Assembly: GCA_038396605.1 (NCBI GenBank)
Contig: CP121690.1
Span: forward strand, 2,818,356-2,882,355
Length of the DNA stretch: 64,000 nucleotides
Origin: Eubacteriales bacterium mix99
Lineage (GTDB): Bacteria > Bacillota > Clostridia > Caldicoprobacterales > DTU083
Direction of reading: 5' to 3'
The position numbers and the translations under genes were made by a program. Shown here piece after piece: positions 1-11,968 of this stretch; the first letter of the stretch is position 1, and each line of letters starts with the position of its first letter. The notes under the pieces were generated by a model. The model was not told the origin of the DNA. It worked only from the letters and a program-made list of their open reading frames with translations, and did not search any database.

Positions 1-1
1 G

Positions 2-1558
2 ACAATCATCCCTGCCAGACGGCAGGTCGGAAACAACGTCAAGCAAGCCGAGCAGCCGAAGCTCCGTATAGCCGCATACTGCCGTGTCAGCACCGACTCG
101 GACGAACAGGAAACCAGCTACGAAACGCAGGTCTCCCACTACACGGAGTACATCAAAAGCCACTCGGAATGGGAACTCGCCGGAATCTTCGCCGACGACG
201 GAATCAGTGGCACCAACACAAAGAAGCGTGATGAATTCAACCGCATGATCGACGAATGCATGGCCGGAAACATCGACATGATCATCACCAAGAGCATCAG
301 CCGATTCGCCCGCAACACGCTCGACTGCCTCAAGTACATCCGGCTTCTAAAGGACAAGAACATCGCGGTCTGGTTCGAGAAGGAATCCATCAACACGATG
401 GACTCCAAGGGCGAGGTTCTGATCACCATCATGGCAAGCCTCGCGCAGCAGGAATCCCAGTCCCTTTCCCAGAACGTGAAGCTCGGACTACAGTACCGCT
501 ACCAGCAGGGAAAGGTGCAGGTCAACCACAATCACTTCCTCGGATACACCAAGGACAGCGACGGGCACCTCGTCATCGACCCGGAACAGGCGGAGGTCGT
601 CAAGCGGATCTACCGCGAGTACCTCGAAGGGCTCTCCATGAAGAAGATCGCCGAAGGACTGGAGCAGGACGGCATCCTCACCGGCGCGGGCAAGACAAAA
701 TGGTACGACTCCACCATCAACAAAATTCTCCGAAACGAGAAATACATGGGCGACGCCCTGCTTCAGAAAACCGTAACCACGGACTTTCTCACCAAGAAAC
801 GCGTACGCAACTCCGGTGCCCTGCCGCAATACTATGTGGAAGATGACCATGAAGCCATCATTCCGAAGGAAATCTTCATGCAGGTGCAGGCGGAGCTTGT
901 GCGACGCAGGAAGGTTCACACTGGGCCGAACGGCCAGAAGCGCATCTACTCCGGCAACAACTGCTTCTCTCAGATGGTCGTCTGCGGAGAATGCGGCGAG
1001 CTCTACCGGCGCGTCCACTGGAATAACCACGGCTGCAAGAGCATCGTCTGGCGATGCATCAGCCGCCTTGAACCCAGCCGCGCCGCCATGAACTGCATCA
1101 GCCGAACCGTCAAGGAAGACCTATTGCAAGAGGTCACGGTCAAGGCCTTCAATCGGATACTCACCGATAGCGACGGTTTCCTCCGGCAGATGCAGGAGAA
1201 CATAGCAAAAGCTATAATGGCCGCCGACACGATGAGCCCGGACGGTATCCAGGCACGGCTCGACGAGCTGCAGAAGGAGCTCATCCGAAAGGCCAACAGC
1301 AAGCAGGACTACGATGCCATCGCCGATGAAATCTTCCGGCTGCGCGAGCAGAAATCACAGGCCGAGGCAGACACCCGCAGCCGCGAGGAGACCCGGAAGC
1401 GCATCGCCGAGCTGCAGGACTTCATCGCCGGGCAGGAAACCGACATCACAGAATTTGATGAGGCTCTGGTCAAAAAGCTCATCGACAAAATCACCGTCTT
1501 CGCCGACCACTTCACCGTGGAATTCAAGTCAGGGATCATAATCGAAATCGAAGCATAA
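2..1558 (+). CDS. Large serine recombinase, start outside window
   Basis: Site-specific recombinase of the large serine family, which integrates or excises mobile elements through a Ser-DNA intermediate. The frame is open from base 2, giving 518 visible residues; perhaps only a few N-terminal codons are missing. The resolvase domain starts with AAYCRVSTD, the catalytic Ser being visible residue 30, and continues through FADDGISGT and [11 protein letters not shown]. The Recombinase domain follows ([16 protein letters not shown] to EKYMGD), then a zinc-ribbon region with paired cysteines (VVCGECG, later a WRC and a MNC), then a charged coiled coil ([12 protein letters not shown] to KRIAELQDF). 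Length and order fit a full-size family member, so it is probably intact. Codons end mostly in C or G, unlike the cassette after it. The gene converges on the 459-residue cassette gene. Whether it acts on the att sites near rlmD is unknown. Confidence 0.93.
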
Positions 1559-1562
1559 AACG

Positions 1563-1616
1563 AGGCTCCCTTACTACCAATGATGGTAATGTGGGAGCCT
1601 TGGTCTGTTTGTTTTT
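1563..1616 (+). terminator. Rho-independent terminator after serine recombinase
   Basis: An 8-bp perfect stem (AGGCTCCC with GGGAGCCT), extended inside by TTAC/GTAA, is followed by a T-rich run (1601-1616). It starts 5 bases after the recombinase stop codon and reaches the stop codon of the convergent cassette gene, so it separates two convergent units. Confidence 0.8.
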
Positions 1617-2994
1617 ACTCAAATACTACAATATAATCTGCGGAGATTTCATCAAAAGTAGAATCTACATCTTCAAATATCTCAGCAAGTTGCTCGTTTA
1701 TTATTCCTCTAACATAATCGTCACGCACACTCGGTTTTTCTATTAACACCCATTTCAGTTGCTGATATGAATACTTTGCAAAAGCTATCCACTGTGGATA
1801 ATTGATTGCCATTGGATTCTGCGTAAAATACACTTTTCCAGCATTAACAGCAGTTGCCGCAGAATGCCCGATGAACAGCATGGTCGCCAACTTTGGATGC
1901 TTCGCCCGACCAAGTGAAAAAGGAATGGATTCTTTGATAGAGTACCCTTCCTTAATTCGCTTGAAAGCATACCCTATCCTTGTTACCACTTCAACAATCA
2001 TGACCGGTATGGACAGCGTACAGAAATGTATGAAATCGTACCCCTCGTAATACATGCCCTGCACAATCTCTGCAATGGTCTGATCATATTCTCCAATTTC
2101 ACCAACCTGCAAAAGATTGAATAATCCCATCAATGGAGCAGGAAGTCCCATCGATGTTGTGATATCTGATTTGAAATGAATTATCTGTTTTGCGATTGCT
2201 GCAAAGATATCTGTTTCTTTTCGATCAGCATAGTTTTCCATAACCTGAGACACAATTTTACCGGTCTTATCGATCGTGGTCATTTTTCCTGTTAGAATAT
2301 CCGCCACTCCAAATATTAGACCAAGCAAAGGATCATGCCCAAGAGAAAGAAGTCGATGATAATATGCAGACAACCCTTCAACACGTACCGTTGTATTACG
2401 ATTATCCTGTGCATCAAAGGGAACCTTACTGACCTTGGAATTAGCCAGTTTTTCCATCTCTTCTTCCGGGAATTTCTTGTCAAACCAGTCCCTGACGTAA
2501 TTCGCAAGAGTCCCGCCTTTAAGACCTTCAGGTGTCTTCTGCGGAATACCCACCAGCAAAATATCTATGGCTGCGCCGAGCAATCCTGCTGCCGCACTTA
2601 TTGCAATATCATATTTGTCCAGATGATGTAATACATTGTACTCTTTATTTAACTGCCGAATTGCTCTATTGTTATTGGCCAGTTCTTCAGGAGTAAATAT
2701 ATCTTCCAGTTCGCTGCCTGTCCCCACGCTTCTTTCTGCTTCAAGGCAAAGATTCTCCCATGATGGAACAACCATAACCTTTCTCGGTACTTCTGCTGGC
2801 ACATTTCGAGCCGCTGCTCTCAACTCTGAAAGTTGTCTGCCATATCCGAGGTTCTGCAAAAGAGCTTCACTTTCAGAAATCCTATCATTTACAGCGGATA
2901 TTGAGGGACGATGTATTTCGAATAATTCCTTTTCCTGATGGGCGAGAACGGTATTAATCTGTTTTTCAACTTCACTATAGTTATATTTACTCAT
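1615..2994 (-). CDS. Unrecognised cassette protein A, 459 aa, probably membrane-associated
   Basis: I do not recognise this protein. It is complete (ATG at 2994). Residues 1-128 are polar and probably helical. After that come about five hydrophobic stretches (near 129-150, 215-236, 280-296, 322-345, 369-395) that carry striking polar motifs: LGHDPLLG (218-225), KSDITTSMGLPAP (275-287), YEGYDFIHF (316-324), RAKHPKLATMLFIGHS (363-378) and NAGKVYFTQNPMAINYPQW (384-402). Motifs with His, Asp, Asn and Gly inside hydrophobic segments suggest a conserved fold with buried polar sites, membrane-embedded or not. It starts 6 bases after the stop of the 187-residue gene, so the two are almost certainly co-transcribed and translationally coupled. 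It is AT-rich relative to both neighbouring recombinase genes and the chromosome. As cargo between two recombinases, a defence, exclusion or toxin-type role is possible but purely inferred. Confidence 0.85.
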   Translation of the reverse strand: MSKYNYSEVEKQINTVLAHQEKELFEIHRPSISAVNDRISESEALLQNLGYGRQLSELRAAARNVPAEVPRKVMVVPSWENLCLEAERSVGTGSELEDIFTPEELANNNRAIRQLNKEYNVLHHLDKYDIAISAAAGLLGAAIDILLVGIPQKTPEGLKGGTLANYVRDWFDKKFPEEEMEKLANSKVSKVPFDAQDNRNTTVRVEGLSAYYHRLLSLGHDPLLGLIFGVADILTGKMTTIDKTGKIVSQVMENYADRKETDIFAAIAKQIIHFKSDITTSMGLPAPLMGLFNLLQVGEIGEYDQTIAEIVQGMYYEGYDFIHFCTLSIPVMIVEVVTRIGYAFKRIKEGYSIKESIPFSLGRAKHPKLATMLFIGHSAATAVNAGKVYFTQNPMAINYPQWIAFAKYSYQQLKWVLIEKPSVRDDYVRGIINEQLAEIFEDVDSTFDEISADYIVVFE

Positions 2995-3000
2995 GTTTAC

Positions 3001-3564
3001 TCATGAAGCAATCCCCAGATCTTTCTGTAGATCCTTTATAGCCTGTTGCAATAGAATATTGAGGCTCTGCAAATAATCCATTCTCTCCTTGCCTGCATCG
3101 GCTTCTGTCTTCATTGCCTTAATTATAGCCTCATGCTTCTTCAAGGCTTCTTTGTATAAACGTTCCTTTTCCTGCCGTAACTGTTTATTCTTCAGATGAG
3201 AGGCAACACCCACCCCCGCGGCAGCAAGGCCTGCGACCGGAGCTGCAAGAACAAATACTCCGGCGACCATACCACCACCAATTAATGCACCTGCTGTAGC
3301 AAGACCAGATGTGATACCAGCAGCAGATAATCCAACAACGCCAAGACCGTAAAGAGCCGCAAAAGAACCTACGCCACCAATACCGGCTCCCAGAGCACCA
3401 GCCAAAACTTCTGGAATTGCACTTTCTTTAATGGTACGATTCTTATCATTCAGAGCCGCTGCAGCCTCGTTTACAACATTAACAACTGACTGCATGGATT
3501 CCACGCTCTGGAAATTCATGTCCTTCTTCTTTTTGACATATGTGTCTTTTTCTTTTTTGCTCAT
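3001..3564 (-). CDS. Unrecognised cassette protein B, 187 aa, glycine-zipper membrane protein
   Basis: Function unknown. Three parts are visible: a Lys-rich N terminus (1-50), a Gly/Ala-rich hydrophobic core (about 52-122) full of small-xxx-small spacing (for example GVVGLSAAGITSGLATAG), and a charged helical C terminus (123-187) that looks like a coiled coil. There is no signal peptide. Glycine zippers of this kind pack or insert in membranes and occur in pore-forming proteins, so an oligomeric membrane role is plausible but not shown. The ATG at 3564 is preceded by a GGGGGT ribosome-binding sequence about 8 bases upstream. It is the first gene of the two-gene unit. A TAAAAT box (3586-3591) and three 28-bp repeats lie just upstream and could control it. 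Confidence 0.85.
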   Translation of the reverse strand: MSKKEKDTYVKKKKDMNFQSVESMQSVVNVVNEAAAALNDKNRTIKESAIPEVLAGALGAGIGGVGSFAALYGLGVVGLSAAGITSGLATAGALIGGGMVAGVFVLAAPVAGLAAAGVGVASHLKNKQLRQEKERLYKEALKKHEAIIKAMKTEADAGKERMDYLQSLNILLQQAIKDLQKDLGIAS

Positions 3565-3604: not shown

Positions 3605-3688
3605 GACGTCTATCTTACAGCCACAACTCCCCGACATCTAACTCGGCAACTCAACATAGTGACATCTATCAAGGCAACTCAACCCTCA
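3605..3688. repeat. Three imperfect 28-bp direct repeats with att-like boxes
   Basis: Units start at 3605, 3633 and 3661, an exact 28-bp period. The second and third share GACATC-N11-CTCAAC, the same pattern and spacing as in the attachment-like sequences at 3816 and 5016; the first is degenerate (GACGTC at its start). They lie directly upstream of a TAAAAT box at 3586-3591 that has no recognisable -35, so they cover the -35 position of the two-gene cassette. They could be regulator sites, recombinase-binding sites or relics of earlier integration. The 3565-3948 gap otherwise contains the rlmD 3' remnant and no supported gene. Confidence 0.65.
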
Positions 3689-3797: not shown

Positions 3798-3842
3798 CTA
3801 TTTCCCTTCGACCCTTGACATCAATACTACCGTCTCAACATG
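3798..3842 (-). pseudogene. Detached copy of the 3' end of rlmD
   Basis: Read on the minus strand, this encodes HVETVVLMSRVEGK and a TAG stop (3798-3800). This is a normal-looking C terminus for RlmD, but the codons before it do not match the protein. The present rlmD ends with HVETVALMSRNM instead. The simplest reading is that insertion at the HVETV codons pushed the original gene end 1.2 kb away and replaced it with an element-supplied one. It could instead be a gene end carried in by the left element. Confidence 0.65.
3816..3842. other. Candidate attachment site, distal copy
   Basis: 27 bp matching 5016-5042 with one mismatch. It reads as the rlmD codons for HVETVVLMS on the minus strand and contains GACATC-N11-CTCAACATG. 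Its position at the junction between the left element and the recombinase-bearing segment fits an attL/attR-type site. The true crossover dinucleotide cannot be read from one sequence. Confidence 0.6.
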
Positions 3843-3948
3843 TGAAAGTTAGGCTATTTCACACACTTGTAGAATTTCCTTTATTTACAAAGGTTTTCTG
3901 GCTGTTTGAGTGTATCGTACATCCATATCGCCATCTCAGATGAGTAGG

Positions 3949-4875
3949 CTATTTTTGCTTTTTGGAGCTGTATTTCGTGCTCTTCCTCTGCCTTTCACCA
4001 GATTCGGTAATAACAATATTGCTTCGTTTCGCTCGTGCTTCCCGCGCGGCACGGAATACGTCCTCTGTAATGATCGGCGGGTGGCTGTCCTTCATTTCAA
4101 ACATCTGACCCTCCGTCACAGAGTCTGCCAGCCGCACAGTTCCTATGTATTTCTCGTTTGATAGCAGGGTGTCTACTGACCTCTTGCTCCACCGTTCTTT
4201 TCCCGTAGGAGAGGGAATCTTTTGTTCAGCCAGTTTCTTTGTAATCCCCAATATGCTTGCTCCGTCAATGTACCAACGGAATATATCACGTACCACTTGT
4301 GCCTGTGTCGGCTCTACCACGAGATTTCCATCATCGTCCTTCACATAACCATACAGGCGCTTTCGGTAATTACCGGAACTGCCGTTCAAAGCGCGGTTTC
4401 TGAATCCTATGCGGATATTCATGCTTCTGGTCTCATTTTCAGCCTGCGCAAATGACTCAGCAACAGAAATGAGCAGATCATCATCAACTACATCTGTATC
4501 AAGACCATCCTCATCAAATATGACACGTACTCCAGCGGCTTTTAGTCTTCGAAGTGCCTCAAGCGTATCAACGCTATCTCTTCCAAACCGGCTGATGCTT
4601 TTTGTAAGGATAACCGATATATGATGCGCCTCAGCTTCTCGGATCATCCGCTCAAATTCTCGGCGCGGTGCTTCTCCCTTTGCGGTACCAATATCTATAA
4701 ACGTATCAGTCAGTTTCCATTGTTCGACATTGGCCACCGCTCTTGTTAGAGCTGCTATTTGTGCGGCAAGGCTATTTAGTTGGTTCTTTTCACCGGTACT
4801 AACCCTGCAGTAGATGCCAACATTCATGCCCGGATCAGTTCTTTTGGCAGGTATATACCACACCTTTGGGCTCAC
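3949..4875 (-). CDS. Short serine recombinase, 308 aa
   Basis: Site-specific serine recombinase. The resolvase domain is near residues 17-150, with the catalytic Ser in VGIYCRVSTGEK, then DIGTAKGEAPRREFERM and LTKSISRFGRDSVDTLEAL. A Recombinase domain follows (GYVKDDDGNLVVEPTQAQ to SNEKYIGTV, to about 270). The protein stops soon after with a basic tail and lacks the zinc ribbon and coiled coil of the full-size recombinase at 2-1558. It may be a naturally short class or may need a partner. The start is GTG at 4875, fixed by AAAGGAGG seven bases upstream. It lies between the two candidate attachment sites and is transcribed away from rlmD, as expected of an integrase beside its att site. A promoter is visible at 4908-4936. 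Confidence 0.92.
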   Translation of the reverse strand: MSPKVWYIPAKRTDPGMNVGIYCRVSTGEKNQLNSLAAQIAALTRAVANVEQWKLTDTFIDIGTAKGEAPRREFERMIREAEAHHISVILTKSISRFGRDSVDTLEALRRLKAAGVRVIFDEDGLDTDVVDDDLLISVAESFAQAENETRSMNIRIGFRNRALNGSSGNYRKRLYGYVKDDDGNLVVEPTQAQVVRDIFRWYIDGASILGITKKLAEQKIPSPTGKERWSKRSVDTLLSNEKYIGTVRLADSVTEGQMFEMKDSHPPIITEDVFRAAREARAKRSNIVITESGERQRKSTKYSSKKQK

Positions 4876-4907
4876 TGTACCGCCTCCTTTCGCCTTATTT
4901 TAGCCTA

Positions 4908-4936
4908 ATTATATCGAATAATACTATCAATGTACA
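4908..4936 (-). promoter_or_regulatory. Candidate SigA-type promoter for short recombinase
   Basis: On the minus strand TATAAT (4908-4913) and TGTACA (4931-4936) are 17 bases apart, about 33 bases upstream of the GTG start. The -35 matches the consensus at four of six positions. Confidence 0.5.
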
Positions 4937-5003
4937 GTAGTCTATTATTGGTCTTTCCCCGTCTCGAAATACAATATATATGAGTCAGATTGCCATGCAT
5001 ACA

Positions 5004-6374
5004 CTACATATTGCGTGACATCAATGCTACCGTCTCAACATGCATTGTCTGGGGGAAAAGATCGACCGGCTGCACTTCCTCTGCCTGATACCCATTCTCC
5101 GACATAAGGTTCAGATCTCTTGCCAGAGTGGCTGGATTGCAGGAGACATAAATCATTCTTTCCGGTGCCATTTTTACAATCGCATCCAACAATTTGGGGT
5201 CACAACCTTTGCGGGGCGGGTCCACCACCACGACATCCGGATGCAGCCCAAGCCCGGAAAGCCTTGGCAGTACCGCTTCCGATCGGCCTTCCAGAAACTC
5301 TGCATTTTCTATCCCGTTCAATCCGGCATTTTCTTCTGCATCCCGGACTGCCTGCGGGATCGCTTCCACTCCGTAAACCTTTGCCGCTTTGCCTGCAAGA
5401 AAAAGAGAAATGGTGCCGATCCCGCAATAGGCATCCACGACCTTTTCCTTCCCGGTCAGGTTTGCATACTCCAGAACTTTGCCATACAGTTTTTTGATTT
5501 GAATCGGATTGACCTGAAAAAACGACAGCGGGGATATCCTAAACTTTAAATCGCCAATCGCATCCAGAATGGAATCGGATCCCCACAAGGTAATGTTTTT
5601 TTCCCCCAATACCACGTTTGTTTTTTTCGTTTGAACATTCTGTATAATGCTGGTGATCCCCGGCAAGCCATCTTTCAAAAGGGAAATCATCTCTTTTTCC
5701 CGATGAAGCTCCCCATTGGTCACGACAATGACCATCAACTGATGACTCCGAAAGCCCACTTTGATTACCACATGCCGAAGGACACCCCTGTGGGTACTTT
5801 CCTCATAAACGGGGATGTTATAGGTCTGAATGAATTCCCGCATGAGGCACATGACCCGGTTGATGACTTCATGCTGTATGGGGCATTGTTCAATATTGAT
5901 CAGATTATGACTCCTGGCAGCATAAAAGCCCAGCACAGGGCGGCCTTTTACCAATCCCACAGGGAACTGGGCTTTATTGCGATAGTTCCATGGCTCATCC
6001 ATGCCTATGGCAGAATGGACAGTAACATCCCTCAAATGCCCGATTCGTTCCAACGCATCCCGTACTTTCTCCGTCTTATAATCCAGCTGGGCATCATAAG
6101 TCAGGTGCTGGAGCTGGCACCCTCCGCAGGCCTTGAAATACGGGCACCAAGGTTCGATGCGAAGAGGAGAATTCTGTAGGATATCCAGGAGCTTTCCATA
6201 GGCATAGGCCCGGGCGATCCTTACGATTTTAACAAGCACCCTTTCCCCCGCCAGGGCTCCCTCCACAAAGACAGTAAAGCCGTCCACACGGCCGACGCCC
6301 TCTCCGTTGGTTCCAAGGCGGTCTATATTCATTTCATAATCCTGATTTTTTATAACAGGTATTTCCGGTCTCAT
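5004..6374 (-). CDS. rlmD: 23S rRNA (uracil-5-)-methyltransferase, RumA/RlmD family
   Basis: SAM-dependent enzyme that makes m5U in 23S rRNA (U1939 in E. coli; some Bacillota enzymes also do U747). An N-terminal TRAM domain (about 12-70) is followed by a 4Fe-4S cysteine set (C77, C83, C86, C164), the SAM site DAYCGIGTIS (314-323) and VVDPPRKGCDP. The catalytic Cys is 412 in VSCNPATLARDL, and the catalytic Glu 447 in HVETV is 35 residues later, the same spacing as in E. coli RumA. The last residues (SRNM) are probably supplied by the inserted element; a more usual ending (SRVEGK) survives at 3798-3842. All catalytic residues remain, so the protein should be active. It is the boundary between mobile DNA and chromosome. 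Confidence 0.95.
   Translation of the reverse strand: MRPEIPVIKNQDYEMNIDRLGTNGEGVGRVDGFTVFVEGALAGERVLVKIVRIARAYAYGKLLDILQNSPLRIEPWCPYFKACGGCQLQHLTYDAQLDYKTEKVRDALERIGHLRDVTVHSAIGMDEPWNYRNKAQFPVGLVKGRPVLGFYAARSHNLINIEQCPIQHEVINRVMCLMREFIQTYNIPVYEESTHRGVLRHVVIKVGFRSHQLMVIVVTNGELHREKEMISLLKDGLPGITSIIQNVQTKKTNVVLGEKNITLWGSDSILDAIGDLKFRISPLSFFQVNPIQIKKLYGKVLEYANLTGKEKVVDAYCGIGTISLFLAGKAAKVYGVEAIPQAVRDAEENAGLNGIENAEFLEGRSEAVLPRLSGLGLHPDVVVVDPPRKGCDPKLLDAIVKMAPERMIYVSCNPATLARDLNLMSENGYQAEEVQPVDLFPQTMHVETVALMSRNM
5016..5042. other. Candidate attachment site inside rlmD
   Basis: Second copy of the 27-bp sequence, within the last codons of rlmD (HVETVALMS). It includes the codon for the Glu that serves as catalytic base in this methyltransferase family, so any insertion here must carry its own version of the gene end. 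The element evidently does: rlmD runs on in frame for RNM and stops at 5004. Confidence 0.6.
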
Positions 6375-8257: not shown

Positions 8258-11200
8258 TTATACCATTTTAACACACCGTTCCCCAAGCATTCCGGTCAAT
8301 TCCCGGAGCAGGACAGAATCCCGCCGGATCCATAAATCCGGGCTGGACTGATACAGCTTGTCCGTCGCCTCCAGATATAAATACACCGGAATACTTCCTC
8401 TGTACTTCTTCAACACGCTGCAGATATCCTGCTGAACATCCGGACTGCGGTCCCTGGATATCTTCAGGTACAGCCTGTGTCCCTTTTTCCCGGGCTCCTT
8501 TACAGATGTTTTGCCGGAGGTGCTCCCGGACGTCTTGCCGGAGGTGCTCCCGGACGTCTTGCCGGAGGTGCTTCCAGACGCCTTGCCGGAGGTGCTCCTG
8601 AACGCCTTGCCGAAAGTATCTCCTGATGCATTTCCGGTCCGTTTTCCGATCCTTTTCCCGGATGCTTTTCCGGACATCCTGTCGGACACCAGGGGCTCCA
8701 CCTCATTGCAGATGACTTTGGGATCCTCCTCTTCCCGAAGGCTGATTTTACCCTTCAAAATCACAGCCTGATCGGTATTCAATAAGGAAGAAAACCTGGA
8801 ATACACTCTGGGAAACACAATGACTTCAATAGTGCCATACAGGTCTTCCAGGGTAACAAATGCCATGATGCTGTTATTCCTGGTATATTTGATCTTCTTA
8901 TCCATAAGAATACCACCCAGTGTAACCGGGGATCCGTCTGCCAGATCCGTAGCCGGCAGGCTTCCTTCCGCCATCGTTTCCTTCTCATCCTCACCCTGCA
9001 GGCCAAGAATATCCAGAGTGGTCTGAAAGCCTTCCAGGGATTCCTTGTACTCATCCAGAGGATGCCCGCTGATATAGACACCTGTCATTTCCTTTTCCAT
9101 GGAAAGTAAGGTTTTGAGTGGAAATTCCTCCCGATCCGGCAAAATATCCAGCTGGTATGCGGCAGGTGCAGCAGATGAAGCGCCGCCAAACAGGGACAGC
9201 TGTCCGGAAACATTTCGCCTTCTGTCCTGGGCGAAGCTGTCCAGAATCTTTTCATAAACCGCAAGAAGCTGAGAACGATGGGCCCCCAGGGAATCGAACG
9301 CGCCGCATTTGATCAGGCTTTCCACCATCTTTTTATTGATCCCCACGTCCTCCGTCTTCCGGCAGAAATCCAGGAAGCTGACAAACCGGCCCTTTCCCTC
9401 CCGAACTTTGATAATCGCTTCAATCGCCGACGTTCCCACATTTTTCACGGCAGCCAGGCCAAAACGGATGGAATGATCGCGAACCGTAAATCTGGCATAG
9501 CTTTCGTTCACGTCCGGCGGAAGCACCGGGATGTTCTTCTTCCTGCAGTATTGAATATAGCCGGAAACTTTCCCGCTGTTCCCCATAAAACTGGTGATCA
9601 GGGCTGCCAGGAAGGGAACCGGATAATGGCATTTGAGCCACGCCGTATGGTAGGCAACCAGGGCATATGCCGCAGCATGGGACTTGTTGAAGGCATATTT
9701 GGCAAATTCCATCATCTCATCAAAGATCCGGTTGGCCTTTCCCTCCGGAACGCCGTTGCGCAGCGCTCCCGGTACGGTCACATTCCCGTCTTCATCCAGG
9801 ATACCATGAATGAAGTACTCCCTTTCCTTCTGCATGACATCGGCCTTTTTCTTCGCCATGGCCCGGCGCACCAGATCGGATCTTCCCAGCGAATATCCCG
9901 CCAGATCCCTCACAATCTGCATGACCTGCTCCTGATAGACCATGCATCCATATGTCACCTTCAGTGCGGGTTCCAGGCTTTCATCCGTATACTCTATGGA
10001 CTCCGGATGGTTTTTGTTTGCAATATACCTTGGGATCTGGTCCATGGGTCCCGGCCGGTAAAGGGAAATCCCGGCTATGATATCCTCGAAGGTGGATGGC
10101 CTGAGCTCCTTCATGAACTGCTTCATGCCGGCGCTTTCCAGCTGAAACACACCATCCGTATCCCCCTGGCTGAGCATATCATAAACCGATGCATCATCCA
10201 GCGGAATGGAATAGATATCAAGCTTTTCCCCGTTGCTCCGCCCAATCATCCCGACCGTATCCCGGATCACCGTCAGGGTGCGCAGACCGAGAAAATCCAT
10301 TTTCAGCAGTCCCAGCTGTTCCAGCGTTCCCATGGGAAACTGGGTGGTAACACAATCATCGTTTTTCTGCAGCGGAACATAATCCGTCACCGGCTGCCCG
10401 GTGATCAGAACACCGGCCGCATGAGTGGATGCATGTCTCGGCAGTCCTTCCAGCTTCCGGGACATATCAATCAGGGACCGGGTGGAGGAATCCTCCCCGT
10501 AGAGCATTTTCAGCTCCTGATTCCTTTCCATTGCCTTGTCAATGGTCATTCCGATTTCATAGGGAATCATCCTGGCAATCCGATCCACTTCGCCATAGGA
10601 CATGTTCAGAGCCCGTCCCACATCCCGGATGGCAGCTCTGGCTGCCATGGTGCCAAAGGTAATGATCTGGGCCACATGATCCTCCCCATATTTCCGAATG
10701 ACATAATCAATGACTTCCTGCCGTCTTTCATAGCAGAAATCCACATCAATATCCGGCATGCTGACACGCTCCGGATTCAGGAAGCGCTCAAACAGCAGGC
10801 CGTACTTCATCGGATCGATCTGCGTGATATACAGGGTATAGGCCACCAGACTCCCGGCGGCACTGCCTCTACCCGGTCCGACAACAATCCCGTTGTCCCT
10901 GGCATATTTGATAAAGTCCCATACAATGAGGAAATAGTCCACATATCCCATTTGAATGATGGTTTGGAGCTCATACTCCAGGCGATCCCGGATTTCTTCC
11001 GTCACTTCCGGATATCGTTCCTTCAACCCTTTGTAGCAGAGGTCCCTGAGATACTGCTCTGCGGTACAGCCAGCCGGAACATCATACTTCGGGAGGTGGA
11101 GCCTGCCGAATTCAAACCCGACATGACACCGGTTCATGATCCTCACGGTATTTTTCAGAGCTTCCGGATACTCCCGAAACAAAAGTTCCATTTCCTCCGG

Positions 11201-11968
11201 GGATTTCAGGTAGAACTCCGGAGTTTCAAAGCGGAGCCGGTCGGCATCCTCTATGGTCTTTCCGGTTTGGATGCAGAGCAGGACATCATGGGCATCGGCA
11301 TCCTCCCGGTTGATATAGTGCACGTCATTGGTCGCGACCAGCGGAATGCCGGCTTCCCTGCTGATCCGAACCAGCCCTTCATTGATCTCTCTCTGGGCAG
11401 GCAATCCGTGGTCCTGCAGTTCCAGATAAAAGGATCCCTGTCCAAAAATCCCGTTCAGGCGGTTGGCGGCAGCCACTGCATCATCATAGCGCCTTTGTTT
11501 CAGCAATTGGGGAATCTCTCCTGCAAGACATGCGCTGAGCCCAATCAGGCCCCCTGAATACCTGGCAAGGGTTGGGTAATCAATCCGTGGTTTGTAATAA
11601 AATCCTTCTGTAAACCCAAGGGAAGACAGAGCCATCAGATTCCGATAACCGGTTTGATTCTCTGCAAGAAGGACAAGATGGGTATAATTGCCGTCCGTAT
11701 GCGCCTCCTTGTCCTTCATGCTGCGGGGCGCCACATAGACTTCACAGCCGATGACCGGCTTCAGCCCCCTGGCAACTGCCTCCTGATAAAATTCCACCAC
11801 GCCATACATGACACCATGATCCGTAATGGCCATTCCGGGCATTCCCAGCTCCTTGCACCGGTCCAGCAGCTCCGGTATTCTGCCTGCCCCATCCAGCAGG
11901 CTGTATTCGGTATGCACATGCAGATGCACAAAGTCAGACATCTTATCACCTTTATTCCCCATGGTCAT
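8258..11968 (-). CDS. dnaE: DNA polymerase III subunit alpha, DnaE type
   Basis: Replicative polymerase of 1236 residues. Order: N-terminal PHP domain (HLHVHTEYSLLDG, ITDHGVMYG), polymerase catalytic core with PDIDVDFCYERR (catalytic Asp pair near residue 400) and GRGSAAGSLVAY, helix-hairpin-helix region, OB fold (VTLGGILMDKKIKYTRNN), then a C-terminal domain. Between the OB fold and the C-terminal domain is a low-complexity linker of Ser-Gly-Lys-Thr units encoded by 24-bp repeats, which is unusual. The start at 11968 overlaps the upstream stop codon as ATGA; an alternative ATG at 11941 (MSDFVHLHVH) has its own GGTGAT site and matches the usual protein start, so the first nine residues are uncertain. 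Upstream is the DRTGG/CBS regulator, as in Bacillus. Confidence 0.96.
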   Translation of the reverse strand: MTMGNKGDKMSDFVHLHVHTEYSLLDGAGRIPELLDRCKELGMPGMAITDHGVMYGVVEFYQEAVARGLKPVIGCEVYVAPRSMKDKEAHTDGNYTHLVLLAENQTGYRNLMALSSLGFTEGFYYKPRIDYPTLARYSGGLIGLSACLAGEIPQLLKQRRYDDAVAAANRLNGIFGQGSFYLELQDHGLPAQREINEGLVRISREAGIPLVATNDVHYINREDADAHDVLLCIQTGKTIEDADRLRFETPEFYLKSPEEMELLFREYPEALKNTVRIMNRCHVGFEFGRLHLPKYDVPAGCTAEQYLRDLCYKGLKERYPEVTEEIRDRLEYELQTIIQMGYVDYFLIVWDFIKYARDNGIVVGPGRGSAAGSLVAYTLYITQIDPMKYGLLFERFLNPERVSMPDIDVDFCYERRQEVIDYVIRKYGEDHVAQIITFGTMAARAAIRDVGRALNMSYGEVDRIARMIPYEIGMTIDKAMERNQELKMLYGEDSSTRSLIDMSRKLEGLPRHASTHAAGVLITGQPVTDYVPLQKNDDCVTTQFPMGTLEQLGLLKMDFLGLRTLTVIRDTVGMIGRSNGEKLDIYSIPLDDASVYDMLSQGDTDGVFQLESAGMKQFMKELRPSTFEDIIAGISLYRPGPMDQIPRYIANKNHPESIEYTDESLEPALKVTYGCMVYQEQVMQIVRDLAGYSLGRSDLVRRAMAKKKADVMQKEREYFIHGILDEDGNVTVPGALRNGVPEGKANRIFDEMMEFAKYAFNKSHAAAYALVAYHTAWLKCHYPVPFLAALITSFMGNSGKVSGYIQYCRKKNIPVLPPDVNESYARFTVRDHSIRFGLAAVKNVGTSAIEAIIKVREGKGRFVSFLDFCRKTEDVGINKKMVESLIKCGAFDSLGAHRSQLLAVYEKILDSFAQDRRRNVSGQLSLFGGASSAAPAAYQLDILPDREEFPLKTLLSMEKEMTGVYISGHPLDEYKESLEGFQTTLDILGLQGEDEKETMAEGSLPATDLADGSPVTLGGILMDKKIKYTRNNSIMAFVTLEDLYGTIEVIVFPRVYSRFSSLLNTDQAVILKGKISLREEEDPKVICNEVEPLVSDRMSGKASGKRIGKRTGNASGDTFGKAFRSTSGKASGSTSGKTSGSTSGKTSGSTSGKTSVKEPGKKGHRLYLKISRDRSPDVQQDICSVLKKYRGSIPVYLYLEATDKLYQSSPDLWIRRDSVLLRELTGMLGERCVKMV
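8511..8606. repeat. Four tandem 24-bp units inside dnaE
   Basis: Units begin at 8511, 8535, 8559 and 8583. The first two are identical; the third and fourth have three changes or so each. On the coding strand each unit encodes SGSTSGKT-like octapeptides. The unit length is a multiple of three, so copy changes would leave dnaE in frame. More degenerate SGK units continue to about 8690. Confidence 0.9.

Follow-up and report, generated by a model that had tools for sequence, protein, structure and literature searches.

The locus examined here raises the question of whether a single serine recombinase gene can make up a complete integrated element. It lies beside rlmD in a 64,000-nucleotide stretch of the Eubacteriales bacterium mix99 genome (contig CP121690.1, positions 2,818,356 to 2,882,355; the whole of this stretch is called the window below), and the preliminary description had proposed either one of the smallest self-integrating elements of its kind or the scar of two elements accreted at one site. 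We found that window 3842-5016 most probably (with a probability of about 0.86) represents a minimal element integrated site-specifically in the rlmD 3' end, measuring 1,200 bp from one attachment site (att) to the other. A real integrated element is the likeliest reading because its far-end site scores 64 bits, the arrangement recurs in 66 of 80 loci, and identity runs from att to att across unrelated bacteria; the assessment is drawn from sequence comparison.

A direct-repeat search returned two 27-bp copies (3816-3842 and 5016-5042) that are 96% identical (1 of 27 bases differs) and lie 1200 bp apart from start to start, as first described; the next longest repeats in the same 6 kb were shorter and less alike (25 nt, 72%; 23 nt, 87%). 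Across the complete own genome (3,132,933 bases, 1 contig) the block occurred at just these two places with up to 3 mismatches allowed, and by our arithmetic the comparison of every 27-mer in 64 kb with every other would yield by chance about 1e-5 pairs with one mismatch or none. The copies enclose one 308-amino-acid (aa) open reading frame (ORF; 4875..3949, minus strand), and the far att starts 107 bp beyond its end. The only other frame of at least 80 aa is an 83-aa antisense one; apart from it, the copies do bracket the recombinase alone, and no conjugation or mobilisation gene was found among the frames of this size between the att sites. Both copies had been placed in or just beyond the rlmD 3' end, which holds for the right copy, which sits inside rlmD, and not for the left one, 1.2 kb away. 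Since the left copy, read in the direction of rlmD, again gives the C-terminus of RlmD (HVETVVLMSRVEGK and stop), we regard it as the displaced tail of the target. The rlmD tail now reads SRNM and stop, as supplied by the element, while the former tail, SRVEGK and stop, stands at the far end of the element; with the 3' codons that come with the element, rlmD retains a frame of full length (Table 1).

Table 1. Features of the putative element, its target gene and the apparent adjoining cassette, with positions in the window.
Feature	Position	Strand	Remarks
rlmD (23S rRNA U1939 methyltransferase), host gene	5004..6374	-	TIGR00479, 508 bits; ends HVETVALMSRNM and stop
Proximal attachment site (rlmD side)	5016..5042	-	25.6 bits with distal-site profile; perfect GAG-N11-GATGTC core
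128-bp leader, rlmD stop to recombinase start	4876..5003	-	without att-like core
Compact serine recombinase, 308 aa	3949..4875	-	resolvase and recombinase domains, no zinc ribbon, C-terminus KYSSKKQK
Second TAGCCTA box	3945..3951	-	109 bp from distal att; initial three bases are the recombinase stop codon
Candidate accessory att-like core	3918..3937	-	GAG-N11-GATGTC with 1 mismatch
First TAGCCTA box, putative element-specific left arm of attachment site	3850..3856	-	14 bp from distal att
Distal attachment site	3816..3842	-	64.0 bits, profile trained without the window
Displaced rlmD 3' end	3798..3842	-	reads HVETVVLMSRVEGK and stop; comparison with relatives
Att-like cores, 28-bp spacing	3605..3680	-	3661-3680 and 3633-3652 perfect; 3605-3624 with 2 mismatches
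187-aa gene of adjoining cassette	3001..3564	-	no family match
BnzB-like gene, 459 aa, adjoining cassette	1615..2994	-	PADLOC PDLC03834 BnzB, E 4.1e-65

In a first search of 61 genomes (the own genome and 60 relatives), the closest homologues of the recombinase likewise adjoined rlmD, one at 57% identity (G009) and three tandem copies at 48-50% in G015, where the three units are bounded by four rlmD-tail copies. We then scanned named genome contigs and took the 80 best loci of 440 relatives; as they were chosen by similarity to the window recombinase, their counts are uninformative on the frequency of the family, and hosts that are metagenome-assembled genomes (MAGs; e.g. L052, L064, L066) may be mis-binned. 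Of the 80 loci, 41 have the C-terminal part of rlmD on the recombinase strand, upstream of the recombinase (a fragment only in L106); 57 have a distal site scoring at least 20 bits downstream; and 66 have one or both, including 62 of the 67 loci at 44% identity or more. The 14 remaining loci include several truncated at a contig end (L046, L069, L075, L105) and nine below 43% identity, a range in which L104 (40%) alone has a far-end site. Most of thirty far-end sites (window included) have AAATAGCCTAA directly before the rlmD-like block. A 45-bp far-end profile built from 27 sites, the window excluded, scored its training sites at 16.0 to 66.9 bits with one locus left out at a time, and picked out 3842 and 5042 in the window (scores in Table 1), the best score in the rest of the window being -9.9 on the same strand and -3.3 on the opposite one. 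Sites of at least 14 bits in the 80 loci were confined to the strand of the matched recombinase. The frequency of the TAGCCTA box at -14 is circular, because that box belongs to the profile by which the sites were found. The comparison shows the recombinase and its two putative ends as one family located at rlmD tails in many bacteria. As the block belongs to the coding sequence of a conserved gene, one might suspect that part of rlmD was duplicated by chance or through homology, without involvement of the recombinase; however, the same arrangement, with element-specific box and spacing, is present in dozens of loci, and this explanation is refuted by the recurring far-end sites together with the att-to-att identity given below, which makes it hardly credible.

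Evidence of movement came from pairwise comparisons. Cassettes of Alkalithermobacter and Paracholeplasma are 98.7% identical over 2,658 bp; the match opens with the first base of the near att and extends 32 bp beyond the first base of the far att. For the pair L033 and L035 the figure is 96.0% over 1,521 bp, from att to att (0 and 9 bp). The closest relative of the window, L031, shares 86.8% DNA identity with it from 23 bp before the near att to the end of the L031 contig, and the two recombinases are 90% identical beside RlmD proteins of merely 37% identity, a gap of which a different rlmD paralogue may explain part. The proposal of a small self-integrating element thus gained ground from the recurring family ends, from att-to-att matches in unrelated hosts, and from size: the window unit is the smallest of 44 elements delimited with a recombinase (1,200 bp; next 1,443 bp). 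The largest delimited sizes are upper bounds, since L035 (6,733 bp) has an inner site at 9829 and L047 has one at 8807. Cell-to-cell transfer would need a vehicle such as a phage, because no transfer gene is present in the 1.2 kb. Two phage records, Streptococcus constellatus Javan105 (54.2 bits, L141) and Gardnerella vB_Gva_AB1 (61.3 bits, L142), have a cassette end beside a compact recombinase, which suggests phage as a vehicle, although phage records may include bacterial flanks. In Javan105 the cassette end follows a large integrase with a 3' end reading VECVVLM, an rlmD-like tail, as if the cassette had inserted in an rlmD tail recreated by that prophage.

The window protein matched Resolvase PF00239 (E 3.6e-26) and Recombinase PF07508 (E 1.4e-21) in Pfam and no further domain family; the zinc ribbon PF13408 was absent from it, yet present in the integrase at window 245-1558. 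An AlphaFold model (mean pLDDT 81, pTM 0.49, the latter leaving the domain placement uncertain) showed no additional domain, and its fold matches in structure comparison were serine integrases and resolvases. The protein ends KYSSKKQK without the zinc-ribbon and coiled-coil C-terminal part of large serine integrases, and one large-integrase frame of the same genome (2756848-2757510) continues past YSSK into a cysteine-containing, zinc-ribbon-like stretch; judged by this frame, the 308-aa recombinase stops where large serine integrases start their zinc ribbon. It could therefore be suspected that the frame is a truncated pseudogene of an integrase from an integrative and conjugative element (ICE) or a prophage, and large integrases are known to use rlmD as a target (PMC4701971, the portion available). 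However, most intact relatives terminate at the same KYSSK motif. In 17 genomes, family members scored 316-587 bits, with frames of 302-319 aa bar one of 392, against at most 250 bits for other recombinases, and in a 101-row tree the family formed one branch of 77 rows (support 99/98) with 24 large integrases outside. As length and KYSSK ending recur across the branch, a truncated integrase was rejected as very improbable. Three rows labelled as large serine recombinases (LSRs) inside the branch (L046, L047, L067) are members with longer frames, and the hosts in the branch are mainly Bacillota, plus single MAGs or genomes from other phyla. The models for Ccr proteins (CcrB 76 bits against a cut-off of 900, CcrA 52/700, CcrC 51/900) and for IS607-type TnpA (45.9 against 110) stayed below their cut-offs.

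Sister recombinases of 37-42% identity without a far-end site (L089, L094, L098-L101, L103, L106) were examined only for flanking direct repeats. That of L100 lies between 22-bp repeats (9574/11212, 1.64 kb apart), that of L101 between 24-bp repeats (9762/15774), and L106 has two copies (9911, 15246) 5.3 kb apart with a TAGCCTA motif upstream; these three, of 37-40% identity, perhaps use other targets. On plasmids, 85 records matched the recombinase at 1e-30 or better, all below 60% identity (top 40.8% among the 15 listed), and no att was seen at the locus of the top match (L143).

Where the strands would be exchanged was examined by comparing ends. Far ends (L033/L035, L051/L055, L051/R28) differ at block bases 3 and 6 and steadily from the 10th, and the near ends of L051, L055 and a G015 copy are host-specific up to base 6; a crossover at the GA of GAG was not borne out by these positions. 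We infer that the crossover falls within the initial nine bases of the att block (the HVE codons). The 308-aa recombinase would act through its resolvase-type active-site serine, presumably S26 of the alignment, on this short block and join the excised circle to the rlmD tail, so that the rlmD left arm would be joined to the right arm of the element at the near end and the TAGCCTA left arm of the element to the old rlmD tail at the far end; on excision, the ends would rejoin as a circle and the old rlmD tail would be restored. The sites attB and attP would have a common inner block and a differing left arm (rlmD codons versus TAGCCTA), which could give the reaction its direction. Successive insertions at the regenerated rlmD tail would build tandem arrays, the window unit now abutting an apparent older defence cassette.

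Large serine integrases use their C-terminal part for arm binding and synapsis control. Because the window protein lacks that part, we propose that the second TAGCCTA box, and the att-like cores in part of the family, bind further recombinase and would do the job of the C-terminal domains, as the accessory sites of resolvases do; the basis of this proposal is position, orientation and conservation only. The second box and the cores lie outside the far-end profile. Of 71 distal sites, 66 are preceded by a second TAGCCTA-type box at a distance of 80-125 bp (43 at 100-111, 20 at 117-122 and 3 elsewhere), even with the recombinase kilobases off, compared with 1 box in 19,170 bp further upstream. 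Cores of the form GAG-N11-GATGTC, with at most one mismatch, are concentrated near the ends: the interval 30-400 bp past the rlmD att has 2.1 per kb, the 135 bp leading up to the far att have 2.7 and the DNA beyond that att has 1.9, which is 20 to 30 times the density upstream of rlmD (0.09 per kb); in reverse orientation they stayed at background density. Such counts of boxes and cores are not independent, because homologous ends share ancestry. In the window, perfect copies on both strands are only the two att sites and the cores at 3680 and 3652, and the core at 3918-3937 is weak alone because the minus strand has 15 one-mismatch copies (14 elsewhere). Leaders comparable with that of the window (157-179 bp from att to recombinase match) were found in L033, L034, L037-L040, L042 and L077.

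For loci without the element we turned to rlmD in Blautia, where 60 genomes gave rlmD in 52; 30 loci were fetched, of which 28 were readable and 2 ran off the contig. No such recombinase followed rlmD in 27 of the 28 (within 1.5 kb, or just 26-554 bp in five); it was present only in the genome of the query itself (L111), and cores alone in one (L128). A segment carried by all related strains had been named as the outcome that would speak against an element; the absence of the recombinase from the 27 answers that concern in part, though several of them have other insertions. With cores in only one of the 28 ends, the repeated cores are unlikely to be native to the host. Moreover, cores mark only part of the family, because L111, the sole Blautia locus with a cassette, has none. 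An exact empty site was not found among the Blautia relatives, which have other insertions and divergent tails, and no rlmD match, hence no empty site, was obtained from the sole congener of the source genome. Several Blautia rlmD frames (in the L112-L140 set; e.g. L117, L120, L130, L136) end in long foreign tails after HVET, which is what large-integrase elements of the rumA (rlmD) type would leave. We also observed that the rlmD match on the minus strand starts at most 150 bases from the contig start in 9 of 31 genomes (G003, G008, G011, G014, G017, G021, G022, G025, G027), as if assemblies broke at an rlmD hotspot.

Several observations weigh against the integrated element and the family as described. 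No circle, excision or empty site of the 1.2-kb element was seen, with one genome per species; the single base by which the att copies differ could be a sign of age; and in three pairs (L053/L060, L097/L102, L086/L091) the match continues well beyond att, which related hosts or neighbouring cassettes in common would account for. Near-end and far-end comparisons disagree on a single crossover point. Only part of the ends have att-like cores (14 of 39 near, 22 of 71 far); among loci at 57% identity or more just 2 of 12 near ends do, and the near end of the window element has none. Some members are longer (391-425 aa in L046-L048, 498 aa in L067), and the far end of the adjoining cassette described below was not found in the 146 kb scanned. 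The lack of an empty site in the same species and the one-base difference would also suit a fixed host locus, that is, a domesticated, no longer mobile recombinase beside rlmD; however, the intact ORF, the att-to-att identity between distant hosts and the L031 recombinase beside a divergent RlmD speak for a mobile element instead, and we consider domestication improbable.

Beyond the far att of the integrated element, two perfect cores and one degenerate core at 28-bp spacing are followed by a BnzB-like defence gene, and the element therefore abuts an apparent second cassette; as some other cassettes (14 of 39 rlmD-side ends) have such cores at their near end, we infer that those at 3605-3680 are the near end of this cassette. 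In this respect the idea of two elements accreted at one site also found support. The 459-aa gene (1615-2994) had no Pfam or NCBIfam match; BnzB is part of the Bunzi anti-phage system. An rlmD-tail copy at genome position 2765072 scores 6.7 bits only and has no TAGCCTA box. Past the BnzB-like gene, ORF order and sequence indicate a pair of large serine integrases and about 40 kb of prophage-like DNA (window 1-1571; genome about 2778000-2820000), and a BREX-like cluster (BrxF-BrxC-PglX-BrxH-PglZ-BrxA) lies at 2765605-2777876, followed by the rlmD-tail copy just mentioned. With the BnzB-like gene and this cluster nearby, the rlmD side of the genome is a defence-rich island. The start of the window is 90.5% identical over 1,571 bp to the integrase region beside the rlmD cassette of L040. 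Elsewhere in the window, 8511-8650 is a repeated GKTSGSTS-like tract in the C-terminal part of a 1,236-aa ORF (8258-11968), presumably DnaE.

Related cassettes carry a variety of cargo. The cargo scan covered 72 of 91 cargo ORFs (19, mainly short, were excluded), with matches including Kiwa, NUDIX, metallophosphoesterase, methylases, Thoeris TIR and HamA, and single Pfam matches to Beta-lactamase and CAT. PADLOC models were run on the larger ORFs singly (19 elements, 28 proteins, a choice that favoured large cargo; L035, L044 and L084 are less surely delimited). Of the 19 elements, 12 gave a match reaching 1e-8, which in 3 of them is weak or partial (L056, L071, L084); the matches comprised Kiwa, Thoeris, Hachiman, methylases, a ZorD-like helicase and candidate systems; 7 elements had no match at this level. 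Since most delimited relatives have cargo and a defence gene stands just past the far att, the 1.2-kb unit could be a remnant: the recombinase and the rlmD tail at 5016 would once have belonged to a larger cassette, such as the BnzB-like one, and the cargo would have been deleted. However, the far end is complete (both TAGCCTA boxes and the att at their expected places, with the scores of Table 1), the stop codon of the recombinase falls within the second box, and other units are nearly free of cargo: L062 has no other ORF of at least 70 aa, and L033 and L040 have only ORFs of 75-76 aa. We consider such a scar unlikely, and prefer a minimal element complete in itself.

More tentatively, and with more doubt than confidence, these cassettes may represent a distinct class of self-mobile cassettes, each with its own compact serine integrase, in which two far-end boxes at set spacing, with arrays of cores in part of the family, replace the zinc ribbon and coiled coil, regeneration of the rlmD tail grows arrays, and single anti-phage systems are traded among distant bacteria, the window unit being the cargo-free minimal form. 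If this is true, very small cassettes dock at rlmD tails, and some of them carry whole defence systems from one bacterium to an unrelated one. This would help explain how defence islands form, and the TAGCCTA box with the rlmD tail would become a simple marker to find and delimit cassettes. It also raises the question of whether accessory sites in DNA can stand in for the coiled-coil and zinc-ribbon parts of serine integrases, and, with 308 aa and a short target, such an integrase could be developed into a compact tool for genome engineering.

The element can be compared with several known systems. With the Tn3/gamma-delta resolvases it shares the catalytic fold; the repeated sites near the crossover site (the second box in 66/71 far ends and cores in 22/71 far and 14/39 near ends) may, by analogy with the res architecture, correspond to their accessory sites. 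However, those resolvases (183-aa chains) resolve cointegrates and do not integrate into a gene, whereas the window protein has the LSR-type domain PF07508. Like integron gene cassettes, the rlmD cassettes are small, have few genes and accumulate as arrays at one site; integron cassettes rely on a tyrosine integrase encoded outside the cassette, while nearly every delimited rlmD cassette has its own serine recombinase. Staphylococcal cassette chromosome (SCC) elements accrete in tandem and carry defence cargo. The rlmD family has the SCC-type traits of a kept target tail, direct-repeat att and tandem accretion (three tandem units in L028). As described in the available part of PMC6222049, SCC and ECC cassette chromosomes (CcrAB/CcrC, rlmH) likewise have a serine recombinase, variable cargo and direct-repeat att, and lie at the 3' end of a gene for an rRNA methylase. 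The present family differs from SCC/ECC in its target (rlmD, not rlmH), in a single 308-aa recombinase as against Ccr proteins (profile lengths 442-558), in units of 1.2 to at most 6.7 kb, and in the paired TAGCCTA boxes at the far end.

The rumA elements share the target gene: in the portions available of PMC4701971, PMC5704250, PMC11578063 and PMC12785378, rumA (rlmD) is the target of ICEs, integrative and mobilizable elements (IMEs) and prophages with large serine integrases, in keeping with the earlier statement that the rlmD 3' end is a known target of serine-recombinase elements. Integration of the streptococcal rumA ICEs swaps the 3' parts of rumA and the integrase gene, with attR within the latter (PMC4701971, the same portion), whereas here the far att lies 107 bp beyond the recombinase, the rlmD tail is canonical, and the 1.2 kb has neither conjugation genes nor a zinc ribbon. 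The ssrA islands of Dehalococcoides (DsiB/DsiA) resemble the family in standing in tandem at a gene 3' end with direct repeats, a serine recombinase by one edge and an element-specific motif adjoining the repeat, and differ in the target (ssrA), in a 540-aa CcrB-like DsiB with a 200-aa partner and in a six-gene integration module (PMC3146451, as far as its available text goes). Thus rlmD/rumA as a target of large integrases, tandem islands and SCC-type cassettes are already known, while no description of a compact rlmD cassette family was found in open-licence full texts, a scope outside which most subscription papers and preprints lie. By its sequence features, the window element fits such a family of compact-recombinase cassettes at rlmD, with a recombinase of the 308-aa type, a putative rlmD-tail att at both ends and TAGCCTA boxes at the far end.

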